Shown here: in pieces, positions 34,169 to 40,337 of the stretch
How positions within the stretch are numbered: position 1 is the first letter of the stretch
Layout of the letters: each line of letters begins with the position of its first letter
Assembly (NCBI GenBank): GCA_016776925.1
Contig: JADHSL010000009.1
Location: 1 to 64,000 of the forward strand
Length of the DNA stretch: 64,000 bases
Direction of reading: 5' to 3'
Origin: Pirellulales bacterium
Lineage (GTDB): Bacteria > Planctomycetota > Planctomycetia > Pirellulales > UBA1268
Translations under genes and position numbers: made by a program
Notes under the pieces: generated by a model
What the model was told of the DNA's origin: nothing
What the model saw: only the letters and a program-made list of their open reading frames with translations
Databases searched by the model: none

Positions 34169-36277
34169 ATGGTTATTCAGAAGCATTTTTTGAGTCTTAT
34201 TACAAGGTTTTCACGCGTTGCTGTTACGGTGATGCTGAGCGTGGCAATGACTGGGATATCTGGTCCGTGGATGTCAAAAACGACCGCCAGCGATTGGATG
34301 CCAATGTTGCCGGATCAGGACTTTTATGACTTCCAGCTATTCGCACCACCTGATTTAGGTTCATACAACATGTATGAACGCGACGATGATGGTGTCTACT
34401 TTAAATACGATCGTCTGTTTTGGGGTATCACTATTCCTCGAACTGTCCGGACAGCTGAGACTGACAACGGAACTGCAATTATTCCGACGCAACCAATATC
34501 TCCTTTTACGATTGTTGACCTAAATAACGACTATTTGGAATTTTCACGGGACAATCCGATTGTTGTTCAGACGACAGAAGACAACGCACAGACAGAAGTT
34601 AATACGCTTGATAATATTTCATCGAATACCACTCTTTTTGAAGTTGGCTCAGATCCACTTCGACTTGATCTCAATACAAGTTGGATGCGAACCAAGATGA
34701 CAATGGGAAATCGATATGAGGGAGGTTGGTCGTATGGCGGTCGGGGTGTCAACATTTCCTACTTCCAGATTGGCAAGCAGGAACAGACCTTCGGTACATC
34801 GAGTGAGTTCGCGGTTAATTCACCGACACAGACATTCACATTTGAAACATCTCTGGCCGGCGGTGGTGCTGGTGGCGGTGGTGGTACTGGTGGCGGTGGT
34901 ACTGGGGGTAGTTCAGGAACGACTGTTTCCCTTGAAACCACAACCGACAGTCCACAGCCCGATCATGTGATAACTCAGAATCTCTTCCAAAAAAATGCAA
35001 CACAAATCAATTCTGCTGGAGTTTCACTGACGCTGCGGAAACAGTTGGGGAGACGAAAGGGATCAACACGACTCACCTATGCCCTGGGGCCACGCTTTGT
35101 CCAGCTTGAAGATCGGTATGAGCTTGACTATGTGAGTTTTCAGAACACGTTTAATACTCAGGCTGGTGGTGGGGGTGGTACAGGCGGTGGTACAGGCGGT
35201 GGTACGGGAGGCACGACAGGCGGTACCACAGGCGGCACGACGGGCGGCACCACAGGCGGGAACAACAACACCGGCGGGAACAACAACACCGGCGGGAACA
35301 ACAACACCGGCGGGAACAACAATACAGGTGTGACTGGTCCTGGGGGTGATGTTCAGCAGACCTTTACGACAAGTATGGGAGGGGCCGGAATGCTCGGTAT
35401 AACGACCGGAGATCTCCCCTCGACTATTACAGGAGACGGGCCAGGGTCAATCTTTCAGACAGCACAGTGGGATACATTTACGTCCAATAATATGGTTGGC
35501 CCTGAATTCGGCATGATGTTTGAGGGTAGTCAGGGAGCGTGGGACTGGTACGCAGGCGGTTCATTTACAGCCGGATTCAACTGGCAGAATAATATTTATA
35601 AAGGCGCGAATTTGCCCCAGAATCTGGGGGCAGATTATCTGAGAACCAATTTTGCTGGAGGTGGCGTAACCACGGTAAACTTCTCTTCACCAGCACAGGG
35701 AAACGATTCAACTTCGGTGGTTTCTGTTCCAACAAGTCCATTAATCGTTCAAGTATTTCCTACAGGTCAATCAGCTGCGACAAATTCAGCAGAACATGAC
35801 TTCTCGTTCTCTCCTATTGGGGAATGGAGGTTTGGAGGGCGTTACCGAATCTCAAAAGCAATCAGTTTTAATTTTGGTTATACGGGCATGTGGTTATCAC
35901 AAATTGCCCGTGCTAGTTCGAACACCGCATATCGGAGCGTTATCAAGCGGAATCCTGCAGCTGCTAGGAATCAAACAGCAATTATTGAAGACAATGTTGC
36001 TACAAACCCTGGTGCGACTGCAATCGTTAATCCACAAGGGTTTGTAACAGGCTATACGACGACTCCAGTAGCTGCTCTTCCGCCACTTACTGGGGGAGCT
36101 CGTTATGTGCCAGCAACGATCACTTATGGTAATGGGAATGGTGCCCGTACCGTGCGAAACCCCGAAGAATTTCTGGAATTGCAGGAGACAGCGTATACAC
36201 AACAAGTACCAGGGAATTCCGGCAATGAGTATGTGTTTACAAACGGAATCGATTTTGGTCTAGAAATAAAATACTAG
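34169..36277 (+). CDS. Predicted outer-membrane beta-barrel protein with Gly-rich repeat loops
   Basis: Signal-like N-terminus, aromatic C-terminal residue (FGLEIKY), alternating-polarity strands, GGGTGG and GGNNNT repeats. Confidence 0.75.
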   Translation: MVIQKHFLSLITRFSRVAVTVMLSVAMTGISGPWMSKTTASDWMPMLPDQDFYDFQLFAPPDLGSYNMYERDDDGVYFKYDRLFWGITIPRTVRTAETDNGTAIIPTQPISPFTIVDLNNDYLEFSRDNPIVVQTTEDNAQTEVNTLDNISSNTTLFEVGSDPLRLDLNTSWMRTKMTMGNRYEGGWSYGGRGVNISYFQIGKQEQTFGTSSEFAVNSPTQTFTFETSLAGGGAGGGGGTGGGGTGGSSGTTVSLETTTDSPQPDHVITQNLFQKNATQINSAGVSLTLRKQLGRRKGSTRLTYALGPRFVQLEDRYELDYVSFQNTFNTQAGGGGGTGGGTGGGTGGTTGGTTGGTTGGTTGGNNNTGGNNNTGGNNNTGGNNNTGVTGPGGDVQQTFTTSMGGAGMLGITTGDLPSTITGDGPGSIFQTAQWDTFTSNNMVGPEFGMMFEGSQGAWDWYAGGSFTAGFNWQNNIYKGANLPQNLGADYLRTNFAGGGVTTVNFSSPAQGNDSTSVVSVPTSPLIVQVFPTGQSAATNSAEHDFSFSPIGEWRFGGRYRISKAISFNFGYTGMWLSQIARASSNTAYRSVIKRNPAAARNQTAIIEDNVATNPGATAIVNPQGFVTGYTTTPVAALPPLTGGARYVPATITYGNGNGARTVRNPEEFLELQETAYTQQVPGNSGNEYVFTNGIDFGLEIKY
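35255..35326 (+). repeat. 4 x 18-bp tandem repeat (ggcgggaacaacaacacc) encoding GGNNNT
   Basis: Direct reading; preceded by GGT-rich short repeats from about 35160. Confidence 0.95.
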
Positions 36278-36311: not shown

Positions 36312-36788
36312 TTATCTGTTTCCCGCTGCTATCCATTCTGCCGTCGCACCACGAGTTTTGGTTTCTGCAAGACGCTTGAGAAGAGGGCTCCAAAATGTTG
36401 TATTGGAAGCCGTTTGGATCTTTTCTGGTAATTCAGTGGGCAGACCCTTCTGGTCAACCTGCACAAATCCAAAAAGTCCATCCATCCATGGCAGATCTCC
36501 GTTAGCCAGAGGCATGCCCACAACACCGACAACGATATGACATTGTCGCACCTGCAGAATAGCCCCTTGTATTTCAACAAGGGTGCCCACAGGTACAGTC
36601 CGACGGCACTCCACGCTCAATACTCGTCGCAGCATGAGGTTCGCCTCGGGTCCAACACCTCGTGTAGCGGCTGCATAAGCAGCCTCAAGACCATATTTTA
36701 AGAGACTGCCGGCATAAAGCGTGCCATAGTGGTTCGCATCTGCAGGGAGTACAAGTCGGTGTGTAGTCGTTTCATGGTTTTCGGACAT
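36312..36788 (-). CDS. Acyl-CoA/ACP thioesterase, hotdog fold
   Basis: THRLVLPADANHYGTLYAGSLLKYGLEAAYAAATR...PVGTLVEIQGAILQVRQCHIVVGVVG. ORF extends to 36830. Confidence 0.78.
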   Translation of the reverse strand: MSENHETTTHRLVLPADANHYGTLYAGSLLKYGLEAAYAAATRGVGPEANLMLRRVLSVECRRTVPVGTLVEIQGAILQVRQCHIVVGVVGMPLANGDLPWMDGLFGFVQVDQKGLPTELPEKIQTASNTTFWSPLLKRLAETKTRGATAEWIAAGNR

Positions 36789-36914
36789 CCATCCGTTATA
36801 GCGATGCATTCCAACAAAAACATAGTCCACCTGGTTGGCCGGTGATTAGTGTGTGCTTTTATTCTCGACTGCCGAAGAATGGCGTGCAATTATGTCACTG
36901 TTGGTCTGCAGTGA

Positions 36915-39900
36915 TTAAGCAACTGAAACAGGAGGGTTTTTTTCACGTAGGTGGGCAGCATACGACGGATCAATTTTGAGGAGTTCTTCTCGCACGGCAG
37001 TCACGGTTTTCTTTATTTGATCCGACGTGTGATTTGCTGTGATAAAGAATCGAAGTCGTGCCGCTTTCTCTTCAACGGCAGGATACAAGATCGGCTGCAC
37101 ATTGATGCCTCGTTCAAACAGCGCCCGTGACAACTTCAGGCTGTTAATTGAGTTGCCCAAGATGACGGGTACCACGCCGGACCCACCGGAAGCTCCAGTA
37201 TTCAGCCCAGCTTTCCCTGACAGTTCGATAAAAAGTTTTGCATTTTCCTGAAGTTTTGTGACTCGCTGTGGCTCATTTTTGAGCAGACGCAGAGCTCCCA
37301 AAGCAGCACCCGCTGCTGGTGGTGGTAGGCCAATTGAGTAAACAAACCCCGGCACAGTGTATTTCAGCCACTCAATAAGCGTGGAAGATCCAGCAATAAG
37401 CCCACCACAACTACCAAATGCCTTTGATAACGTCGCCATCCAAATATCAACATCCTTTGGATTCACTCCGTAGTGCTCGCCAATTCCTCGTCCAGTAGGT
37501 CCCATCACCCCGAGTGAGTGGGCCTCGTCTACCATAAGAAGTGCCTTGTGTCGTTTTGCAAGGCCGATGAATTGGGGAAGATCAGCGAAGTCGCCATCCA
37601 TGCTATAGATGCCCTCAATAACAACAAGAACGCGTCGGTATTGGCTCCGGAGTTCCGCAAGCATGGCTTCTGCTGCTTCAAAGTCATTGTGTGGAAAGGG
37701 CCTTCGACGAGCACCTGAGAGAATGGCGCCTTGGAGTAGGCTGTTGTGGGCGAATGCGTCGTGGAGTACGAGATCACCCGGGCCAACCACATGGCCAATA
37801 ACTGTTTCGTTTGTTGCGTGACCTCCAACCATTGTGACGGCATCTTCCGTGCCAATGAAGTCAGCAAATGCTCTTTCAAGTTCTTGGTGGATTGTTTTTT
37901 CCCCAGAGACGAGCCGACTTGCTGAGACACTTGTCCCAAATTGGTCAAGGGCGTCTTTTGCCGCCGCGGTCACAACTGGGTCACCAGACATTCCAAGGTA
38001 GTTGTAGGACGCCCAGCTAATGAGTTCACGACCATCAATCGTTGTCTTGTCAGTTGTTTTTCCTTCGTGCACGCTGAAGTAAGGGTTCTGGAGGCCTGCA
38101 TTCCGAACCATTGTAAAATTCTGTTGAAGAGCTCGCACTTCTGGAAATTGTGAGATGTCATACGAGTCGGGAGTGATCTCTGCCACAATACGGGCAGAAT
38201 GGGAATGTTTATGACCCTCAAGTGGCATGTGGTCAAGAATTGCCTCTGTGACTTCACGACATGTTTCAATAGTGGGCAAGACCTGTTCCGGGAAGCGTGC
38301 ACCAAATGCTTCTTCGAGACTTGAAACAATTTCCATTCGTTCAAGTGAGTCGAGACCAAGTTCGACGATGTTTGTGTCTAGAGTGAGGTTGCCGGCACGT
38401 TCCTTCGCTATTCTTTGAACATGATCAAAAACAGTTTGAACAACTTCAGTTGGAAGTTCTCTGTCTGGTCTATGGCCGCGAGAGTTCTCTCCAAGAGGCC
38501 GCTGCCGCGCAAGCCTTGGGGGCTCAGGAGAAGAAGTTTCTTTGGTTGATTCCAGCCAACTAATGTACTGTTCGATGACAGCGAGCGACTCATCTGAGAA
38601 CTGACGTCGGCACGCATGTCGCTGAATCTTCCCGCTTGAAGTTTTTGGAATGCTGTTTGGTCGCACTAAAACAATAGCTTCCGTCGCAACTTCATGCTCA
38701 GTAGCAAGACGCTTACGAATGGCGTCGAATGCGGCCAGAACGTCCGCCTCCTCTCGCTTGCCTCGTTCCAGTTCTGCCACGATGACGACTCGTTCTCGGC
38801 CATCTATATCTACAGCAAAGGCTGCGACACAGCCTGGCCGAATAAGGGCACTTGCTTCCTCCGCAGAATGTTCAAGGTCTTGAGGGTAGTGATTTCTTCC
38901 TCTGATAATTATCAGATCTTTTAGTCGGCCGGTGACAAAAAGTTCTCCATTGTCAAAGAATCCAAGGTCTCCAGTCCGCATGTACGGTCCTTGGTTCGGC
39001 TTCCATCGCCCAACCTGTCCTGCCGTGGTTGCAGGCAGCTTAAGCATTGCTTGAAAAGTGGATTTGGTTTCATCAGCACGATTCCAGTATCCCTGTGCAA
39101 CACTTGGGCCACTTACCCAGATTTCACCAACTCGATCAGGTGGAAGTGGCTCAAAGGTTTGCGGGTCGACAATTAAAACATCCTGTCCATCCAGTTCCCG
39201 TCCACTGCCAACAAATTGTCGTGCATCGGGGGAAGAGTTTTCATTGAGAGTGACAATTCCAGTCTCGACTGAAAGCGGGTCGAAACGATGAATGACTGGT
39301 GGCTCGAATTTCATGCCACCAGTTACCATCAATGTGCTCTCTGCTAATCCATAGCATGGATAGAAGGCCTCGTTTCGGAAGCCACTGATTGCAAAGGCCT
39401 CAGAAAATGCCTTCATTGTTTCGGCTCGAACTGGCTCGGCACCATTAAATGCGAGTGACCAACTCGACAGATCGAGAGACGCTCGCTGTTCGGGCGTTGT
39501 CTTTCGGACGCAGAGTTCATAGGCAAAATTTGGGCCACCGCTAATTGTCGCTCTGTATTTGGCAATTGCTTGCAGCCAACGGAGTGGTTTTTGAAGGAAT
39601 GCAACCGGAGACATCAGGACGTTGAATTTGCCACCATAAAGCGGAACGAGAATTCCCCCAATTAGCCCCATGTCATGAAAGCTTGGTAGCCAAAAGACTC
39701 CTGATTGGCTTCGGGTAATTTCGAAGGCTTGCATAATACGGAGAGAATTATGCAACAGGTTTTCATGACTCAGCATGACGCCCTTTGGGGTGCCAGTAGA
39801 ACCGCTTGTGTACTGCAGAAAAGCAAGCGTGCTGCCCTTAATGTCAGGGCGATTCCACCGATTCGACCATGATTGGTCGAGTTCATCATTGACTTGCCAT

Positions 39901-40337
39901 ACGAGATGTTCAAGGCTCGGTGCGGAGGCCTTAAGAGACTCGAAACGGTCGAGGACATCTCGGGTAGTGAGCGCTACAGAAGCATTTGCGTCAGCTGCAA
40001 TAGCTTCAATCCGTTCAACCGAGCGGTTTTTGCGTGGAGGATATGCGGGAACGGCAATAGCACCCCCGTAAAGGCAGCCCATGAATGCGGCGATAAAATC
40101 AAGGCCGGAAGGGTAGAGAAGCAGGACTCGTTTGCCTGACATGTCCTGGTCCATCAACCAGGCACCAATTGTTCGAGCTTTCTGGTCAAGTTCAGCGTAC
40201 GTAATGTTGAGTTCTTCGTTTTCCCCATCGACGAGAAATGTAAATGCTCTGTCGTGAGGGCGATACGCCGCTCGTTGACGCAAAAGGTCAACAATGGTTG
40301 GGGCAAAAGAGCCTTCGGGTAAAGGGGTCGGATTCAC
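36915..40337 (-). CDS. Trifunctional FAAL (fatty acyl-AMP ligase) - ACP - PLP alpha-oxoamine synthase fusion
   Basis: FAAL: LQYTSGSTGTPKGVMLSHENLLHN, YMRTGDLGFFDNGELFVTGRLKDLIIIRGRNHYPQDLEHSAEEAS. ACP: NIVELGLDSLERMEIVSSLEEAFGARFPE. Oxoamine synthase: WASYNYLGMSGDP, GTSVSASRLVSGEKTIHQELE, VDEAHSLGVMGPTGRG, MATLSKAFGSCGG. Confidence 0.95.
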   Translation of the reverse strand: MNPTPLPEGSFAPTIVDLLRQRAAYRPHDRAFTFLVDGENEELNITYAELDQKARTIGAWLMDQDMSGKRVLLLYPSGLDFIAAFMGCLYGGAIAVPAYPPRKNRSVERIEAIAADANASVALTTRDVLDRFESLKASAPSLEHLVWQVNDELDQSWSNRWNRPDIKGSTLAFLQYTSGSTGTPKGVMLSHENLLHNSLRIMQAFEITRSQSGVFWLPSFHDMGLIGGILVPLYGGKFNVLMSPVAFLQKPLRWLQAIAKYRATISGGPNFAYELCVRKTTPEQRASLDLSSWSLAFNGAEPVRAETMKAFSEAFAISGFRNEAFYPCYGLAESTLMVTGGMKFEPPVIHRFDPLSVETGIVTLNENSSPDARQFVGSGRELDGQDVLIVDPQTFEPLPPDRVGEIWVSGPSVAQGYWNRADETKSTFQAMLKLPATTAGQVGRWKPNQGPYMRTGDLGFFDNGELFVTGRLKDLIIIRGRNHYPQDLEHSAEEASALIRPGCVAAFAVDIDGRERVVIVAELERGKREEADVLAAFDAIRKRLATEHEVATEAIVLVRPNSIPKTSSGKIQRHACRRQFSDESLAVIEQYISWLESTKETSSPEPPRLARQRPLGENSRGHRPDRELPTEVVQTVFDHVQRIAKERAGNLTLDTNIVELGLDSLERMEIVSSLEEAFGARFPEQVLPTIETCREVTEAILDHMPLEGHKHSHSARIVAEITPDSYDISQFPEVRALQQNFTMVRNAGLQNPYFSVHEGKTTDKTTIDGRELISWASYNYLGMSGDPVVTAAAKDALDQFGTSVSASRLVSGEKTIHQELERAFADFIGTEDAVTMVGGHATNETVIGHVVGPGDLVLHDAFAHNSLLQGAILSGARRRPFPHNDFEAAEAMLAELRSQYRRVLVVIEGIYSMDGDFADLPQFIGLAKRHKALLMVDEAHSLGVMGPTGRGIGEHYGVNPKDVDIWMATLSKAFGSCGGLIAGSSTLIEWLKYTVPGFVYSIGLPPPAAGAALGALRLLKNEPQRVTKLQENAKLFIELSGKAGLNTGASGGSGVVPVILGNSINSLKLSRALFERGINVQPILYPAVEEKAARLRFFITANHTSDQIKKTVTAVREELLKIDPSYAAHLREKNPPVSVA

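Follow-up and report, generated by a model that had tools for sequence, protein, structure and literature searches.

Bacteria of the planctomycete order Pirellulales carry a gene that unites fatty acid activation, acyl carriage and amino acid condensation in one polypeptide. We propose that its product is probably a single-chain, self-loading serine palmitoyltransferase (SPT), which would turn free fatty acid, ATP and serine into 3-oxo-sphinganine. The gene lies in a stretch of 64,000 nucleotides, referred to here as the window (contig JADHSL010000009.1, positions 1 to 64,000), from a 3.16-Mb Pirellulales assembly (G000), and it encodes a fatty acyl-AMP ligase (FAAL), an acyl carrier protein (ACP) and a pyridoxal phosphate (PLP)-dependent alpha-oxoamine synthase (AOS). 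Carrier-dependent SPTs are known; what is new is their union into one self-loading chain with a polyketide-type AOS, which is conserved order-wide and appears to take the place of the canonical SPT. No paper describing the fusion was found in the open-licence literature.

The 1140-codon frame is uninterrupted, with no internal stops. Along it, Pfam places AMP-binding (E 5.5e-68, residues 20-418), the FAAL-type C-terminal domain PF23024 (E 4.4e-10), PP-binding (E 8e-10, residues 636-699) and Aminotran_1_2 (E 5.9e-49, residues 771-1114), in that order. This bears out the initial annotation, which had read the frame as a single FAAL, ACP and PLP AOS polypeptide and had suggested a search for the AMP-binding, PP-binding and Aminotran_1_2 architecture; the GLDSLE and PLP-lysine motifs also sit where it had located them (Table 1). 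The ligase has an adenylate-forming core with the ATP motif YTSGSTG at 176, the A10 lysine Lys570, and the FAAL-specific insertion, which is common to E. coli FAAL 3PBK and aligns with a gap in E. coli FadD. Its top PDB match is the polyketide-associated FAAL 7r7e, at 598 bits. The carrier domain has the DSL serine for phosphopantetheine, Ser664, and the genome carries two phosphopantetheinyl transferase-type genes. The AOS domain matches SPT, KBL, BioF and ALAS chains in the PDB at about 130-230 bits and keeps the superfamily residues: PLP lysine Lys972, stacking histidine His864, Asp937 and carboxylate Arg1096. An AlphaFold model (mean pLDDT 72, pTM 0.49, active-site loops <50) was judged too weak for claims about residues. 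Across 46 aligned AOS-bearing sequences, mostly full fusions with a few other multidomain chains that contain an AOS domain, there is no variation in the carrier serine, PLP lysine, stacking histidine or Tyr778; a set of 20 full-length fusions likewise keeps the FAAL A10 lysine, Arg1094 and Arg1096 without exception. The loss of key active-site residues, which the initial annotation had named as a possible objection, is not what these alignments reveal: the residues are present and conserved.

These domains suggest a sequence of reactions. The FAAL domain would use ATP to convert a free long-chain fatty acid to acyl-AMP, and the acyl group would then move to the phosphopantetheine that Ser664 of the internal ACP carries. 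At Lys972 of the AOS domain an amino acid, L-serine being the most likely, would form an external aldimine with PLP; decarboxylative condensation of the acyl thioester with the amino acid, with loss of CO2, would then give 3-oxo-sphinganine or a close analogue. Finally, a YghO/bCerS-type N-acyltransferase and a CerR-like dehydrogenase, whose genes lie together elsewhere in the genome, would lead to a dihydroceramide-type lipid. The general chemistry put forward at the outset, in which a free fatty acid is activated, held on the ACP and condensed with an amino acid, appears sound, as it fits all three domains and their conserved catalytic residues. SPT activity, serine as the substrate, the chain length and a ceramide end product are predictions that draw on genome context and on the clade of the AOS domain.

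The fusion is present in 52 of 59 Pirellulales genomes, clear contig-end fragments counted; among the 59 it was not detected in G007 (62% complete), G012, G030, G036, G037, G040 and G046. Named carriers include Rhodopirellula rubra, R. maiorica, R. sallentina and Aporhodopirellula aestuarii, joined by finished or near-finished planctomycete chromosomes; no full fusion was found on plasmid records. An assembly artefact, in which a frameshift or chimeric join had linked separate genes, is refuted, and its probability is close to nil, because uninterrupted full-length relatives occur in dozens of independent assemblies, finished chromosomes included. Three records titled Candidatus Kuenenia stuttgartiensis (L028, L032 and L035, the last almost identical to L033 and L021) bear Pirellulales-type fusion genes and are probably mislabelled metagenome-assembled genomes (MAGs). 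Some Pirellulales, and a single family-f90 genome from their class, carry another type of FAAL-ACP-AOS fusion (L103, L207, L208); it is about 40% identical, its AOS belongs to a different clade, and it possibly arose by an independent fusion. Ligase-ACP-AOS fusions with AOSs in a sister clade are also found in a Clostridiaceae MAG (L067:2263-5724) and a distant planctomycete MAG (L098:1447-4710); their AMP ligases barely match the FAAL query.

The position of the AOS domain was assessed in a tree of 56 AOS domains (LG+C20+F+G4). A split supported at 100/96 separates KBL, BioF, ALAS-type and Thermus AOSs from canonical SPTs, SulA, plant LCB2 and the fusion. Canonical SPTs, planctomycete ones included, form their own 99/96 clade together with SulA. 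The fusion AOS falls outside this clade of Sphingobacterium, E. coli B and alphaproteobacterial SPTs; it belongs to a clade of 26 supported at 98/97, in which it is joined by AOSs encoded inside or beside polyketide synthases (PKSs) of Myxococcota, Pseudomonadota and actinobacteria. Membership of this SPT-side clade supports an SPT function, since it includes AOSs that are SgaB-type by gene content and the measured activity of SgaB is serine-specific. The sphinganine cluster sgaABC is described as PKS, AOS and short-chain dehydrogenase/reductase (SDR), and recombinant PfSgaB of P. fluorescens condenses acyl-CoAs with L-serine, with a virtually exclusive preference over alanine and glycine (PMC12134224). 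A Pseudomonas plasmid locus (L142) has genes for a PKS, an AOS, an SDR and an LTA synthase. Fusion and SgaB-type AOSs have the active-site columns SYNYLG, GTSVSASR, HNS, DEAHSLG, TLSK and AARLRFF in common. Plant LCB2 (REF_AtLCB2a) branches beside the carrier-linked clade and apart from canonical bacterial SPTs, on a long branch with 90/77 support, and has SYNYLG and SCGG motifs in common with that clade. It is conceivable, though rather unlikely, that the order replaced its canonical SPT by a self-loading chain whose AOS comes from the lineage nearest eukaryotic LCB2; in that case the nearest bacterial relatives of LCB2 would be carrier-fed synthases of this kind and not canonical bacterial SPTs.

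The initial annotation had left the product open among sphingoid, sulfonolipid-like and other amino-lipids. A sphingoid base is favoured, because the fusion co-occurs with YghO and stands where the canonical SPT is missing; the sulfonolipid option has lost ground, for reasons given below. Proteins of the E. coli BL21 sphingolipid set served as search probes: FAAL (AasR), epimerase (CerR), ACP (AcpR) and SPT, with the N-acyltransferase YghO adjoining (PMC9386255). A YghO homologue, mostly 32-40% identical and full length, is present in 54 of 58 Pirellulales genomes; that of G000, at C11:78151-79257, is divergent from a CerR-like dehydrogenase gene. In the order YghO usually adjoins such a dehydrogenase gene; the CerR-YghO pair recurs at loci L148-L151 and L162-L164, and a CerR profile from other planctomycetes matches the frame adjoining Pirellulales YghO at 1e-31 to 1e-76. 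In other classes of the phylum the canonical SPT commonly lies between or beside CerR and YghO; the Pirellulales retain the pair without it, and no canonical SPT was found in G000 at 1e-90 or 1e-75. In a phylum sample of 214 genomes, with canonical SPT called at E <= 1e-75 to E. coli B SPT, YghO occurs in 80 and canonical SPT in 69, each of which also has YghO; the four Pirellulales in that sample all have YghO and the fusion and no canonical SPT. The 14 listed Planctomycetales, from the same class (family f21), have none of YghO, canonical SPT and full fusion. Spt-like proteins have been reported in 138 Planctomycetota MAGs from the Black Sea (PMC11334938).

Co-occurrence was counted in 119 genomes of the class, each at least 90% complete: 25 have fusion and YghO, one only the fusion (G362), one only YghO (G036), and 92 neither. 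Restricted to the order, the counts are 25, 1, 1 and 2 (p = 0.02); in a second Pirellulales sample they are 50, 1, 4 and 3 (p = 0.004). The three double losses of the second sample (G037, G040, G046) fall in three different families. The fusion and YghO genes of G329 converge tail to tail with 183 bp between them, and in the cultured-type genomes G278 and G279 the AOSs listed are KBL-type, BioF-side and the fusion. G036, which is without the fusion, has an SPT-side AOS adjoining YghO. Such AOSs next to YghO (L153:4980-6422 and L154:8350-9690, in G036 and G053) form their own 100/100 clade and are a possible further stand-in for SPT within the order. The FAAL-ACP didomain of G036 was considered as an unfused ancestor and dropped; it adjoins another adenylating multidomain gene.

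Several observations weigh against the identification as an SPT. The fusion AOS scores far below the cut-offs of the NCBIfam bacterial SPT equivalogs NF047599, NF047600 and NF047603, at 265-268 against 500, 295 against 640 and 227 against 670; it also stays below those for bioF (341 against 426) and KBL (297 against 460). L142 and L144 are labelled SgaB-type on gene content and not on sequence identity with the assayed PfSgaB. Part of the co-occurrence reflects shared ancestry: it tracks a single order, numbers inside the order are small, and the 119 genomes are not 119 independent events. For the most part YghO and the fusion are at unlinked loci, and ceramide genes are absent from the 64,000-nt window. 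There are also mismatches, with G362 having the fusion without YghO, and G012 and G030 having YghO with the fusion undetected. Finally, genomes of family f1, G000 included, carry another AOS that falls in the wide clade of the fusion AOS (on contig C61 in G000) and could share or take over the role.

This second AOS (L076:3528-5099 (+), 523 aa) is central to an unlikely alternative, in which it supplies the ceramide precursor and the acyl aminoketone made by the fusion goes into some other amino-lipid. The fusion would then use an amino acid other than serine: glycine or alanine, which would yield a 1-deoxy type base, or a larger one. The C61 AOS is divergent from, and beside, an acyl-ACP-forming ligase, a 900-aa PlsC-ACP-AMP ligase (L076:385-3087 (-)). 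Its own N-terminal carrier-like domain is without the phosphopantetheine serine (GIDDARLED), as in five family relatives, the serine being kept in L060; a carrier acting in trans may therefore serve this AOS. The amino acid choice of AOSs is not securely readable from sequence, and the Black Sea study, in a discussion of 1-deoxy and lysine ceramides, puts forward the use of other amino acids by Spt-like enzymes (PMC11334938). Yet the C61-type locus was observed nowhere but in family f1 and in relatives of L060, whereas the co-occurrence of fusion and YghO spans many other families, and the active-site columns of the fusion are those of SgaB-type AOSs. It is less probable still that the fusion is a natural-product enzyme whose aminoketone goes into a pyrrole, a pyrazine or a comparable secondary metabolite, as with RedL and PigH in prodiginine synthesis. 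RedL, of undecylprodiginine synthesis, uses glycine, belongs to a secondary metabolite cluster and has the order ligase-ACP-KS-AT-ACP-AOS; like the fusion it has ligase, ACP and AOS in one chain and turns a fatty acid into an aminoketone, with the additional KS-AT-ACP between. FAAL-ACP loading modules are common in nonribosomal peptide synthetase and PKS genes, and the nearest AOSs to that of the fusion lie in PKS genes, but the fusion gene is solitary beside housekeeping genes, small genomes included, and near-universal in the order, unlike a patchy biosynthetic cluster. A role as the first enzyme of sulfonolipid (capnine) synthesis, acting on cysteate, is very improbable. SulA, the cysteate acyl-ACP transferase, likewise depends on ACP and is an AOS with the SPT fold, Lys281 being the active-site lysine of the cysteate enzyme (PMC9304779). 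In the tree it too lies on the SPT side. It is a stand-alone protein that groups with canonical SPTs instead, and the option is disfavoured because the position of Lys281 is Ile1002 in the fusion, and Ile or Val in its relatives.

As an SPT, the fusion would do as one chain the work of proteobacterial AasR, AcpR and SPT, with an AOS of the polyketide-release clade instead of a canonical SPT. ACP-fed SPT is established biochemistry: in Caulobacter and E. coli BL21, a ligase with a dedicated ACP precedes ACP-dependent decarboxylative condensation with serine, AasR acylates AcpR only, and the SPTs prefer acyl-AcpR (PMC9386255). YghO and CerR accompany both those systems and the fusion. There the three functions reside in separate proteins and the SPT belongs to the canonical clade. 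The ligase domain of the fusion resembles AasR only remotely: it scores 240 bits to 3pbk against 598 to the PKS FAAL 7r7e, and 368.8 on the AasR profile NF006624 (cut-off 600), on which AasR of E. coli BL21 reaches 870 bits and so passes. SgaA/SgaB of Pseudomonas fluorescens, a PKS plus an AOS with serine-specific SPT activity on a carrier-bound acyl chain (PMC12134224), is comparable in that SgaB-type relatives fall with the fusion AOS in the 98/97 clade and have matching active-site columns, but there an iterative PKS builds the chain, whereas in the fusion, which has no ketosynthase, the FAAL would load a ready-made fatty acid. BioWF of Corynebacterium amycolatum, a pimeloyl-CoA synthetase-BioF protein, is another natural join of adenylating ligase and AOS (PMC9544090); it differs in having no carrier protein, a CoA thioester, a role in the biotin pathway and a ligase of an unrelated family.

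The surroundings of the gene in the window were considered as a clue to function and proved uninformative, the neighbours being the housekeeping genes ksgA, ribE and enolase. The thioesterase-like gene directly downstream could encode a hydrolase of acyl thioesters; its membership of the fusion system is doubtful because it adjoins the fusion within the genus only. A 702-aa protein with long TGG/NNNTGG repeats (34169-36277) is conserved beside the fusion in related genomes and has no Pfam match. The third AOS of the genome, on contig C58, was considered as an SPT and rejected, as it groups on the BioF side of the tree.

Table 1. Coordinates of the fusion gene, its domains and catalytic residues, and the adjoining gene in the window.
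Feature	Position	Strand	Remarks
FAAL-ACP-AOS fusion gene	36915..40337	(-)	GTG start, 1140 aa
Fatty acyl-AMP ligase domain	38568..40313	(-)	residues ~9-590; FAAL-specific insertion, A10 lysine Lys570
Acyl carrier protein domain	38241..38432	(-)	residues ~636-699; PP-binding match
Ser664, phosphopantetheine attachment serine in GLDSLE	38346..38348	(-)	invariant, 46/46 aligned sequences
PLP alpha-oxoamine synthase domain	36984..38135	(-)	residues ~735-1118
Lys972, PLP Schiff-base lysine in GTLSK/ATLSK (here TLSKAF)	37422..37424	(-)	invariant
172-aa gene weakly like hotdog acyl-CoA thioesterases	36312..36830	(-)	directly downstream of fusion, same strand

If the fusion is an SPT, it would supply the first step that sphingolipid synthesis in the Pirellulales otherwise lacks, and abundant marine and freshwater planctomycetes would be predicted to make sphingoid lipids from free fatty acids, with SPT replaced by a non-orthologous, carrier-dedicated enzyme. 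Sequence surveys built on the canonical SPT could overlook these producers or assign them wrongly. The one-chain enzyme would also be a handy biocatalyst candidate, with no requirement beyond a fatty acid, an amino acid, ATP and PLP, and cultured relatives in Rhodopirellula and Aporhodopirellula make the prediction directly testable.

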